From Amycolatopsis sp. FDAARGOS 1241 (GTDB lineage Bacteria; Actinomycetota; Actinomycetes; Mycobacteriales; Pseudonocardiaceae), in contig NZ_CP069526.1 of NCBI RefSeq assembly GCF_016889705.1, positions 4,030,001-4,094,000 of the forward strand: 64,000 nucleotides of DNA, in the 5' to 3' direction. The translations under genes were made by a program, and so were the position numbers. Positions 38,668 through 41,353 of the stretch are shown here, piece after piece (position 1 is the first letter of the stretch; every line of letters starts with the position of its first letter). The notes beneath the pieces were generated by a model that was not told the DNA's origin, ran no database searches, and saw only the letters and a program-made list of their open reading frames with translations.

Positions 38668-38946
38668 ATGTGGTGTCCGGGGAGGTTGGTCAGTCGGGTG
38701 ATCGGTGGGTGGCCTCCGATGGCGCTGTGGGCTCGGTGGTGAATGTAGAAGTGGGGCCAGTAGTGCTGCTCGGCGCTGCTGTTCGCTCGGGTAGAAACGG
38801 GTGTAGGCCCGGCCTTCGGCCGGGGTGCGGTGGAAGCGTTGGAGTTTTCCGTCGGTCTGGGGTCGGTAGGGGTGGGTCCGTTTCGGGGTGATACCCAGCT
38901 CGGTGCATATGTCGCGCCAGAGGTGGGAGCGGTAGGCGCCACCGTT
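38664..38946 (-). pseudogene. IS481 transposase, C-terminal part
   Basis: The fragment begins at NGGAYRSHLW, with the catalytic-region Asn/Gly, then TPKRTHPYRPQTDGKLQRFH, a frame change, and FYIHHRAHSAIGGHPPITR with TNLPGHHI at the end. This is the third catalytic region of an IS481-type DDE transposase. It was cut from the N-terminal part by the IS110 insertion. Confidence 0.85.
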
Positions 38947-38962
38947 GCGTTCCTAAGGGATG

Positions 38963-40351
38963 TCAAGCCGCTTGGTGGGGTTTAGCGTGGGTGTTGGACG
39001 GGCCGGTCGATGGAGCGCTTGGCGACTTCTTGTTTCGCTGGCCCGTCCCCACTCCGGTTGTCCTGTGTGATCGGCGAATGTCTTCCGGAACGGTGTATCG
39101 CTGGGCGATGATGTCGCCGGCTTGGATCGCGGTGACGGGTGTGCCGTTGACGTCGCGCAGCTGGTAGGGCGTGTGGTTTTTCCAGCATGATGCGATGCGG
39201 GTCAGCAGGGTGGTTGCGATGTGGCAGAGCGCAGAGTTGTGGTGCTTGCCGGCTTCGACCATCAGCCGGTGATACTTCGCGGCCAAGGTGGGGTCGTGGC
39301 GGCGCGCCTGGCTGGCGGCCATGAACAATGCTTCGCGGAGCAGGGCGTCGCCGCGTTTGGTCGGGCCGCCGTGGCTGCCGGAGACGCCGGACGCGTTCAG
39401 CGACGGAATAAGGCCGCTGAAACCGCGGACTGCTGCCAAGGACGAGAACCGGTTGACGTTGCCGAGCCGTCCGAGAATGACTGCCCCGGTCACGGGTCCG
39501 ACGCCGGGCGCGGAGGTGATGAGCCCTTCGGGGTCACGTTCGGCGACCAGGACGGCGATACGTTCGTCGACATCTTTGATTTCATCGGTGATCGCCAGCG
39601 CGAGGCGGGCTTCGACGGCGATGTCGTCGGCCAGCTCGGCAAAGGCCAGTTCCTCGCCCCACAATTCGGTGGTCGCGGCGGCTGCGGCCAGGACCCTGTC
39701 GGCTTCCGAGTCGCCCCAGGCGCCGCGGGAGTGCCGGTAGAAGAATCGGGCCAACCGCGCACGGCCGAGGCGACGGACGGCGTGTGGGTCGGCGTAGCCG
39801 GCGGCGAGGAACCGCAGCGGAGTCTTGTTCGCCAGATCGCCGCTGAGGGCGGCATGCCAGTCCGGTCCCAGGATCTCCAGCAGCGCATCGAGCCGGGCGA
39901 GGCCGGCGGTGCGGCGCTGGACCAGCGTGGAGTGCAGTTTCGTCGCGCGCCGCAGCGGATCGCCCGGCCCCGTGCCCCGCTCGGGATGGAGTCCTTCGGG
40001 GTGCAGCAACGGCAGCCGGGCCAGCAGGACCGAGTCCATCCGGTCGCTCTTGGTGTGTTTGGCGTAGTAGGCGCGCAGATCCGCCGACCGCTCTGCGGAC
40101 ACCAGCACCACCGTCGCGCCCCGTCGGCGAAACCACGCGGCCAACGGAACCCACGCGTTGCGGGTCGGCTCCATCACGACCGTCACCTCCGCAGCCGTGA
40201 CGCCGTCGGGCAGCCGTGCCCACAACCGATCCAGTTCCTCGCTGCGGGTGCGGAAACGGTGCCCGGACCAGAGCACGCGTCCCTGCTCGTCGGCCATGCT
40301 GGCTTGGTGCTGCGCGCGGACCGCGAGGTCGATGCCCATCCGAACGATCAA
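38963..40351 (-). CDS. IS110-family transposase (DEDD recombinase)
   Basis: A 462-residue recombinase. The N-terminal RuvC-like domain has the DEDD residues in MGIDLAVRAQHQ, VVMEPTRNAW and KHTKSDRMDSVLLARL. The C-terminal Transposase_20 domain has the region TSAPGVGPVTGAVILGRLG followed by FSGLIPSLNASGVSGSHGGP, where a catalytic Ser of the family is expected. The TTG at 40351 has AAGGGAG 7 bases upstream; an internal ATG four codons on is an alternative. No frameshift or stop is present. The protein is somewhat longer than the 400 or so residues usual for the family, through a C-terminal extension. Confidence 0.93.
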   Translation of the reverse strand: MIVRMGIDLAVRAQHQASMADEQGRVLWSGHRFRTRSEELDRLWARLPDGVTAAEVTVVMEPTRNAWVPLAAWFRRRGATVVLVSAERSADLRAYYAKHTKSDRMDSVLLARLPLLHPEGLHPERGTGPGDPLRRATKLHSTLVQRRTAGLARLDALLEILGPDWHAALSGDLANKTPLRFLAAGYADPHAVRRLGRARLARFFYRHSRGAWGDSEADRVLAAAAATTELWGEELAFAELADDIAVEARLALAITDEIKDVDERIAVLVAERDPEGLITSAPGVGPVTGAVILGRLGNVNRFSSLAAVRGFSGLIPSLNASGVSGSHGGPTKRGDALLREALFMAASQARRHDPTLAAKYHRLMVEAGKHHNSALCHIATTLLTRIASCWKNHTPYQLRDVNGTPVTAIQAGDIIAQRYTVPEDIRRSHRTTGVGTGQRNKKSPSAPSTGPSNTHAKPHQAA

Positions 40352-40649
40352 TGCCGGCTCCCTTGCTCGCGTGAATTCGGATCCGGCCGCCGCACCGCCG
40401 TGGGAGTCCGAGCCGCACCAGACATTCGCTAACAGGGATCCACATCCGCCTCGATCAGGACATGGTCACCGGGTTCCTAACAGGGCATCTCGAACTCCGG
40501 CAGTGGCCCCGCCCGCCAGCATGGTCAACAGGCAAGGAGTCGCGCAGCGCTCCACTCGGTCAAACAACGTTCACAGGCGGGTGCCGGACGACCCCGATCC
40601 CTCCCGCCGGCCGACGAGACAGGCTCAACGCCGCACACCCAGCTTGAAT
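40352..40649 (-). ncRNA. candidate bridge RNA region of the IS110 element
   Basis: No gene lies in this 298-base 5' end. IS110-group elements encode a bridge RNA here, with a target loop then a donor loop. Reading on the minus strand, in order: GTCCG (40589-40585) equals the left target flank; CGTTGT (40569-40564) is complementary to the target ACAACG; TTAGGAAC (40480-40473) equals the element's 3' end; GAATGT (40427-40422) is complementary to ACATTC at the 5' junction. The order fits; each match is short. Confidence 0.55.
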
Positions 40650-41353
40650 GTCGGACAGGACTCGTTCGACGGTCACTCCGCGGGCGGCAAACCCTCCGCG
40701 GGCGGCAATCCAGGTGATGGCACGGTGCAGGACCGCGGTGGCGGTGGCTGCGGTTTCGTCGGTGTGGATCTCGGCGTAGGCGACGCGTGAGTGGTCGTCG
40801 ATGACCGTGTGCAGGAAGGTGGTGCCGGTGCGCGGGTTGCGGTCCGCGCCGCGGGGCAGGCCGGGCGTGGCTCGCTTGTGCGGTCTCCGTGCTGCCGGCC
40901 GAGGACCTGGTGTCCGCCGCCGTCGGGGACGTTGCCGAACTTGGTGACGTCGACATGGATCAGTGAACCGGGATGGTCGTGCTCGTAGTGGCGCAGCGGT
41001 TCGCCGGTGACCCGGTCGATCCGGGACAACCGATTGATTCGGCAGCGCACCAGTACCGCGTGCACCGTCGATGCGGGCAGTCCGAGCCTGCCACCGGACC
41101 GGGCCGAGTCGGTGCCGCCATCGCCGCCGCACGATCGCCCGCACCGCCGGGCCGGGCTGTGGTGCGGACGCGAGCTGCGATCGATCACCCCGGCTTCGCC
41201 TTCGTGCCGGTATCGCCCAGCCCACTTCGCTTCGGTCTTGGCAGCGACCATGAACATCTTGGCCGCCGCCGCGCAGGTCCAGCCCTGCTCGACGACCAGG
41301 CGAGCCAACCGTAGCCGGGTTCGCAGGGTCAGGGTTGCGTTAGGGCGGAACAC
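40650..41353 (-). pseudogene. IS481 transposase, N-terminal part
   Basis: The start ATG at 41353 opens an HTH region (LRLARLVVEQGWTCAAAAKM) and YEHDHPGSLIHVDVTKFGNV. A frameshift follows near GGGH, after which FLHTVIDDHSRVAYAEIHTD and GVTVERVLSD appear in another frame, ending at the IS110 boundary. Both first catalytic Asp regions (HVDVTK and IDDHSR) can be read. Confidence 0.85.

Follow-up and report, generated by a model that had tools for sequence, protein, structure and literature searches.

An IS110-group element of Amycolatopsis carries a predicted bridge RNA whose guides match the Asp-Asn-Gly codons of DDE transposases, and may carry an antisense RNA hairpin in its recombinase gene

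Introduction

The element described in this study is compared with known systems of the IS110 family, of which ISPpu9 is a member, and of the wider superfamily. In the passages of the IS621 reports used here, all four guides of the bridge RNA pair the core (PMC11208160), and recognition by the protomers involves flipped-out A and syn G bases in each of the two loops (PMC11208158). Within the compass of the same passages, the present element resembles IS621 in its DEDD and Ser recombinase, its dinucleotide core and its predicted promoter in the joined right and left ends (RE-LE) (PMC11208160, PMC11208158), as well as in a predicted RNA of the left end in which a target loop is followed by a donor loop, each built of a stem, a left guide, a stem loop and a right guide. 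A flipped-out A is described in the IS621 loops, and a bulged A is predicted here. The two differ in that IS621, as described there, has a CT core and a 328-residue chain, whereas the core is CA and the recombinase has 462 aa here; further, the left target guide of the present element, unlike that of IS621, has no match to the second core base, the target is formed by the DNG codons of transposases whereas REP is the example named for IS110, an additional antisense hairpin is present, and the similarity of the proteins is weak (E about 3e-7).

ISPpu9, with its small RNAs Asr9 and Ssr9, is similar in that an antisense sRNA accompanies the transposase gene (PMC8450116). According to the parts of that report compared here, Asr9 lies antisense to the 5'-UTR and enhances translation. 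The hairpin of the present element lies instead opposite the 3' end of the ORF and is similar to the target-loop hairpin. ISPpu9, which has an RNA-rich noncoding end, shows that an insertion sequence can carry an antisense sRNA, in its case a stimulating one located at the opposite gene end (PMC8450116). Judging by the titles of the respective papers, IS4321/IS5075 and IS1383 are members of the superfamily aimed at other mobile elements, as is the case here, but their targets are terminal inverted repeats, whereas the present element enters catalytic codons inside a transposase gene. The seekRNA elements (ISEc21 and others) are also similar, since an RNA from a noncoding region selects the site and the target varies by element, although the passages compared describe neither a transposase-codon target nor an antisense hairpin (PMC11187229). 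In the titles and abstract openings of the mostly open-access literature searched, we found no IS110 element aimed at transposase catalytic codons and no antisense hairpin over the 3' end of a recombinase gene.

The locus lies in a window of 64,000 nt, which is the whole stretch of DNA analysed (Amycolatopsis sp. FDAARGOS 1241, contig NZ_CP069526.1, positions 4,030,001 to 4,094,000), and coordinates given without a locus name refer to it. Here, we report the comparative analysis of this element, its predicted bridge RNA, its target sites and a hairpin on the opposite strand of its recombinase gene.

Materials and Methods

Relatives were collected from overlapping draws of 150, 394, 390, 397, 220 and 112 genomes, from the GTDB species genomes, which were scanned once by peptide patterns, and from plasmids. 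Twelve distinct elements had both ends readable, namely L001 (the present element), L009, L010, L041, L052, L053, L055, L040, L012, L059, L044 and L058. Not included in the guide tests were L045, L056 and L057, in which an end was absent or could not be located, as well as L047 (a second copy of the element of L044), the fragment L013 and the 38% relatives L060–L063. Chance expectations of short strings were calculated as 298 divided by 4 to the power of the string length.

Results

The element and its ends

The features of the locus are collected in Table 1. The host genome contains seven full copies of the element (100% identity after rounding), one deleted copy and the 70% relative L041. 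The boundaries previously read from the sequence alone are correct, being exactly common to the seven full copies, each of which is inserted in ...CCGA-CA-ACGG... on the transposase strand. The core is CA, since the flanks run on without a gap when the element is taken out and share this dinucleotide. The deleted copy (L042:6112-6593) retains just the first 482 nt of the element, followed exactly by the right half of the target, AACGG; the ends of its deletion share GC, and it could be a microhomology deletion or a by-product of the recombinase.

Table 1. Positions of the observed and predicted features of the locus in the window
Feature	Position	Strand	Basis or remark
IS110-group element	38947..40649	- (transposase sense)	1703 nt; seven full copies with identical ends
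Recombinase (tnp) ORF	38963..40351	-	462 codons, TTG start; Pfam DEDD_Tnp_IS110 and Transposase_20
Left noncoding end, encoding the predicted bridge RNA	40352..40649	-	298 nt
Target-binding loop (P1, P2, internal loop, apical hairpin)	40497..40587	-	21 named pairs in eight elements
Apical hairpin of the target loop, with bulged A	40536..40553	-	pairing
Left target guide (LTG), core TGACCGA	40556-40562	-	TTGACCGA = 40556-40563; TTTGACCGA, with two further bases, = 40556..40564
Right target guide (RTG), CCTGTTG	40526..40532	-	pairs CAACGG with one G-U; the LTG and RTG lie on either side of the hairpin
Donor-binding loop with 10-bp basal stem	40403..40498	-	by-eye basal stems for 10 of the 12 elements
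Left donor guide, TTAGGAAC	40473..40480	-	equals right element end TTAGGAAC-G-CA
Right donor guide (RDG), GAATG	40423..40427	-	pairs CATTC at the left end
TTGACA, -35-like half of predicted circle promoter	38961..38966	-	TTGAC in 11 of 12 elements, TCGACA in one
CAAGCT, -10-like half of predicted circle promoter	40641..40646	-	TAGCGT or TAGCCT in four relatives
Core dinucleotide CA, right-end junction	38946..38947	-	flanks of seven copies give CCGA-CA-ACGG without the element
Core dinucleotide CA, left-end junction	40649..40650	-	flanks without the element
Left target TGTCCGA	40651..40657	-	TGACCGA at three other copies in the genome
Right target ACGG	38942..38945	-	flank reading
Host IS481-family element, interrupted at DNG codons	38669..41472	-	terminal inverted repeats; IS481 and rve Pfam matches on the pieces
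Antisense hairpin in the 3' end of tnp	38996..39048	+	11-bp stem and hairpin GGAGCGC-N3-GCG(A)CTTC, resembling the target-loop hairpin
TAGCGT, -10-like box	38983..38988	+	7 nt before the antisense hairpin

Membership in IS110, as first assigned from the sequence, was supported by both Pfam domains of the family, the N-terminal DEDD RuvC-like domain (PF01548, E 8.9e-20) and the C-terminal Transposase_20 domain (PF02371, E 3e-20), and by a weak but significant phmmer match of the recombinase to IS621 and ISCro4 (E about 3e-7). As the catalytic serine expected in the C-terminal domain, S321 is aligned to the serine of the ESG motif of IS621, which we take to be S241. The ORF is separated from the left end by 298 nt and from the right end by 16 nt, and the element therefore fits the IS110 group and not IS1111. 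The latter group, with the bridge RNA in a long right end and sTIRs of 7–17 bp, was considered and rejected: the right end has 16 nt here, and the arms GCTTGA/TCAAGC, which flank the donor, have only 6 bp.

The nearest relatives sit in the host's own family, two of them being from Sciscionella and Haloechinothrix; the plasmid search yielded only two Rhodococcus relatives, and none were found among viral contigs searched by protein and by pattern. In two closely similar relatives (L053 and L055), the recombinase is split across two frames, at differing places. Genome G238 contains the near-identical copies L044:1495-2889 and L047:1495-2865, both with an in-frame TGA in the part that matches the recombinase; either these copies are no longer functional or the TGA may be read.

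Fold of the predicted bridge RNA

Based on comparison among relatives, we consider it very probable that the 298-nt left end encodes a bridge RNA, with target guides that correct those first proposed. The evidence is comparative. The fold of the complete 298-nt strand was not more stable than those of shuffles (z 0.34), and a search against Rfam gave no match at gathering scores. In the eight elements with alignable left ends, to which the pair counts are limited because MAFFT of all 12 misaligns the distant target loops, 95.8% of the cells over the 21 pairs of the target loop are paired, as against 40–54% in slid controls. Ten pairs changed on both sides, and neither this number nor the degree of pairing was reached in 500 shuffles; four of five measures beat all 500 shuffles, and further pair types were matched by 120 of the 500. 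The stems of the other four elements were named by eye and checked for pairing only. Folded alone, the target loop gave a modest z of -1.89 in the present element and -1.63 to -5.05 in four others. The basal stem of the donor loop, which was named in ten elements (L044 and L058 excepted), is fully paired in all ten with quite different letters; the donor-loop pieces folded alone gave a weak z of -1.30 in L001, and those of L052 (-0.04) and L040 (+1.02) were no better than shuffles. The sequence-only reading had placed a bridge RNA in this 5' noncoding end with the target loop first and the donor loop second, and the covarying stems, together with guides that change with the targets, agree with that placement.

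Donor guides and predicted circle-junction promoter

The left donor guide TTAGGAAC or a close variant was found in all 12 elements (TTGGGAAC; TGAGGAAC in L010; TTCGGGAAC in L058). GAATG is present in ten, and both exceptions, L012 and L059, whose end reads CATCT, have AGATG. Both donor strings of the earlier reading match the joined ends and co-vary with them among the 12 elements (CATCT with AGATG), and they have been retained. Across the RE-LE junction, the -35-like sequence is 17 nt from a [T/C]A...T hexamer in all 12 elements. As TTGACA and CAAGCT meet at this distance only in the circle, the bridge RNA would come mainly from the circular form.

Target guides and reading of the core

The LTG lies 1 or 2 nt before the apical hairpin (2 nt in 11 of 12 elements), and as a 7-mer it is the best match to the element's own left target within the left end in all 12 (joint-best in L058). 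This guide was found via target matches; the evidence for it that does not depend on them is its constant location next to the hairpin. Eight elements have TGACCGA and insert at T[G/C/T]ACCGA, TGTCCGA or AGACCGA; the other guides GCCCCGA, GGTACGA, TCACTGA and CGTCCGA correspond to the left targets GCCACGA, GGTACGA, GCACTGA and CCTCCGA, respectively. The RTG, located behind the hairpin, ends in TG against the CA core and changes with the target, forming 4–6 pairs including wobble; as a 7-mer match, it is joint-best in three elements and not best in nine. In L058, the RTG fits the right flank CACACTCC only with the repeated CA slid by two.

Both the RTG and the RDG end in TG, opposite the core, in 12 of 12 elements. 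The two bases after the LTG match the first core base in six elements and the second in none (L059 could wobble). Pairing of the core in all four guides, as in the IS621 model, was not observed here; in this branch, reading of the core seems to fall to the right-hand guides.

Target sites in DDE transposase genes

The programmed site TGACCGA-CA-ACGG encodes Leu-Thr-Asp-Asn-Gly in GC-rich codons, and TGACCGACAACGG encodes Thr-Asp-Asn-Gly, the preceding residue being Leu or Val. In DDE transposases, the second catalytic Asp belongs to the motif DNG. Since the site spells these residues, the element mostly lands in and breaks the DDE catalytic motif. The target had been recognised as another transposon in the sequence-only reading, and this holds more widely: insertions lie within rve-type transposase genes in six of the eight copies of this genome (by Pfam for L001, L002, L003 and L005, by near-identity of the gene to that of L001 for L007, and by tblastn for L042) and in six relatives, the other two copies being in a carbohydrate-binding module gene and a protein kinase gene. 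All seven same-target elements of other lineages are inserted at DNG codons; the genes interrupted by six of them are of the rve or rve_3 type, and L041, the seventh, has the DNG codons with weak similarity only (E 0.005) and no Pfam match. The other five insertions examined (L012, L059, L044, L047 and L058) have different guides, and no DNG was found in the frame tested.

The host IS481-family element at the present locus has the terminal inverted repeats TGTGGTGTCCGGGG.../...CCCCGGACACCACA, with its transposase split by the IS110 insertion, and it begins 2 bases past the stop of the upstream ORF (end 38667).

These insertions could reflect tolerance and not aim, if the guide reads only TGACCGACAACGG and insertions elsewhere are lost to selection, and we give this reading a substantial probability, somewhat short of even. 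The genome contains 82 empty CCGACAACGG sites, three of which (L072, L100 and L129) are in transposase genes by tblastn, two of these being detected by Pfam; set against six of eight occupied sites, this speaks against tolerance. Copies within dispensable genes persist longer, and those that share a host element (L001 and L007; L002, L003 and L005) may be non-independent. A guide match at at least two of positions -7 to -5 was found in all six distinct occupied sites (all eight when every copy is counted) versus 27 of 82 empty ones (Fisher p=0.002; 0.0003 for all copies). The two copies in non-transposase genes are in keeping with tolerance. The guides of the eight same-target elements, however, are constant letter for letter while the stems drift, with 7 of 7 LTG columns and 8 of 8 RTG columns invariant as against 19 of 42 paired positions, and the DNG codons and rve or rve_3 domains recur in the other lineages as described above. 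Each of these points against tolerance fits aim and survival alike. The same-target elements form one clade in the tree (local support 0.995) with invariant guides, and the elements outside it use other guides; the specificity therefore looks old and kept. The DNG codons of transposases might be kept as a target because they are good prey or because they are safe ground, and the sequences would suit either reading.

Antisense hairpin in the recombinase gene

An inverted-repeat scan revealed a near copy of the apical target-loop hairpin on the opposite strand, within the 3' end of the recombinase gene. When 18 loci were searched by motif, 15 had the hairpin antisense to the gene, including all 12 elements with both ends; L045 and two copies of the 38% relative gave no such hairpin. 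We regard a real structured antisense RNA element as quite likely here. The 14 aligned elements (L047 left out), which are selected for having the hairpin because they were taken from the positives of the motif search, share an 11-bp stem and GGAGCGC-N3-GCG(A)CTCC with an invariant bulged A.

The pairing is strand-specific. Among the pair cells of the antisense strand, in which related rows are non-independent, 216 are Watson-Crick, 18 are G-U, 17 are mismatches and none is A-C, which leaves the sense strand without any G-U cell; 93.2% of cells are paired in the antisense direction, 86.1% in the sense direction and 41–50% in slid antisense controls. Double-sided changes were found in four pairs, as compared with three in each of three slid controls, and provide no evidence for the hairpin. 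TAGNNT precedes the stem by 7 nt (6 in two) in 13 of the 14 aligned elements, with CAGGCT in the remaining one. Actinobacterial -10 boxes are often TANNNT, and the box fits a predicted transcript starting at the hairpin; a scan for sigma-70 consensus promoters listed none.

A DNA site instead of an RNA, for example a cruciform bound by the recombinase, is suggested by the location of the hairpin about 50–100 nt from the right end and, in L001, of a similar one, inverted, about 100 nt from the left end. We consider this unlikely in view of the strand-specific pairing and of the promoter-like box at transcription-start distance, and the letters of the left-end hairpin are not conserved. It is less likely still that the hairpin is a by-product of the protein tail or a hairpin of the sense mRNA, even though it lies entirely within the tnp ORF here and the L001 region beats shuffles on both strands (z -3.97 antisense, -2.71 sense). 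In comparisons with seven relatives, the same-codon rate at identical residues is 0.90–0.96 around the motif, the highest of all segments scored, as against an ORF mean of 0.56 (sd 0.12), whereas residue identity (0.43–0.51) is below the ORF mean of 0.585. Moreover, the motif region is in another reading frame in L040, the ORF of L044 ends before it, and wobble cells occur on the antisense strand only, 18 to 0.

A covariance model searched against 200 family genomes gave 17 matches at E<=0.01, of which the best 14 (E<=4.2e-5) are all in these recombinase genes and the weakest three are elsewhere. One of these 14, in G027, was from outside the build set, with G replacing the bulged A and without the TAGNNT box. 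Of eight chosen genomes, six were matched, with seven hits at elements and two weak ones elsewhere, and G1040 (which has the 38% relative) and G169 gave none. Plasmids searched with blastn gave no match to the antisense region. In G169, the same hairpin GGAGCGCATGGCGACTCC is located on the recombinase strand upstream of the gene (L045:2584-2601), as in the target loop of L001; the ends of L045 were not found.

Assignment of the target guides

Using one element for each of five target classes, the pairing of each LTG with its own target exceeded the other 119 assignments, and the own pairing of the RTG, assessed separately, was the best of 120; the LTG was first spotted by target matching and both guide positions were named with the targets in view, so these tests were not blind.

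The sequence-only reading had listed four strings, which are indeed on the minus strand as placed: GTCCG (40585-40589), CGTTGT (40564-40569), TTAGGAAC (40473-40480) and GAATGT (40422-40427). Its caution about chance matches is justified for the target strings alone and not for the 8-nt donor string, the numbers expected in 298 nt being 0.29, 0.07 and 0.005 for a string of 5, 6 and 8 nt, respectively. That GTCCG and CGTTGT, both present in the left end, are the true target guides now appears highly improbable. GTCCG overlaps the basal stem P1 and is kept in four of the eight same-target elements (CTCCG, TTCCG or TGCCG in the other four). CGTTGT, which adjoins the LTG on its leading side, is kept in three of the eight, the others having CGCTACG, CGCTTGT, CGCTGCT or TGCTGC, although its region scores slightly higher than the RTG as a 7-mer against the right target in L001 and L010. 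TGACCGA and CCTGTTG, which were absent from the earlier list, are kept in eight of eight. The refuting conditions set at that time thus speak against both target strings, GTCCG being placed in stem P1 and CGTTGT being absent from most same-target relatives. The better-supported target guides flank the hairpin between the two loop strands.

Related proteins have related targets, yet the recombinase protein alone has almost no chance of being what picks the target, since guide strings at a fixed RNA position vary with the target over five target classes, and L012 (tree row L054) and its sister L059 have common flanks just before (GTCTACGGCTGG) and after (ACTGATCGTCGAG) the loop but differ in guides, hairpin and targets.

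Discussion

The following sequence of events is proposed for this element. In the excised circle, the joined ends would form the promoter TTGACA-17-CAAGCT, from which the bridge RNA would be transcribed. In its target loop, the left half of TGACCGA-CA-ACGG would be paired by TTGACCGA, and the right half together with the CA core by CCTGTTG; in its donor loop, TTAGGAAC and GAATG would pair with the joined ends of the element. By analogy with IS621, the DEDD/Ser recombinase would swap strands at CA, so that the element would mostly insert into, and break, the catalytic motif of the DDE transposases of other insertion sequences.

The antisense RNA would not depend on a junction and would be made while the element is integrated; the hairpin is probably a small RNA, which may restrain the recombinase. 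Given that IS621 protomers recognise the flipped-out A and syn G in both loops, the bulged A could allow this hairpin to tie up the recombinase, possibly as a mimic of its counterpart in the target loop. We advance this decoy role as a possibility that falls well short of even probability; a plain alternative would be that the antisense RNA pairs with the tnp mRNA. The combined proposal is that, in this IS110 branch, the bridge RNA has become permanently directed at the Asp-Asn-Gly codons by which rival DDE transposases encode their catalytic motif, which would serve both for homing and for disarming, and that an antisense RNA copying the recombinase-binding hairpin of the target loop checks its own recombinase while the element is integrated. 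This proposal as a whole is tentative, and we think it rather more doubtful than probable.

The elements analysed here provide natural covarying pairs of guides and targets, which are useful for deducing pairing rules; they come from a branch of IS110 in actinobacteria whose recombinase is large and whose core is CA. A guide matched to a conserved protein motif of competing transposons would give the element a target that is both durable and dispensable. The antisense hairpin hints at a further level of regulation in bridge-RNA systems; being located inside the ORF on the other strand, it would escape surveys of noncoding ends.

An IS110 element of 38% identity was found in four copies in another genome (L060, L061, L062 and L063), with the common ends GTCATGTAAGG... 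and ...GGGAATCAG, and it belongs to a separate target class.
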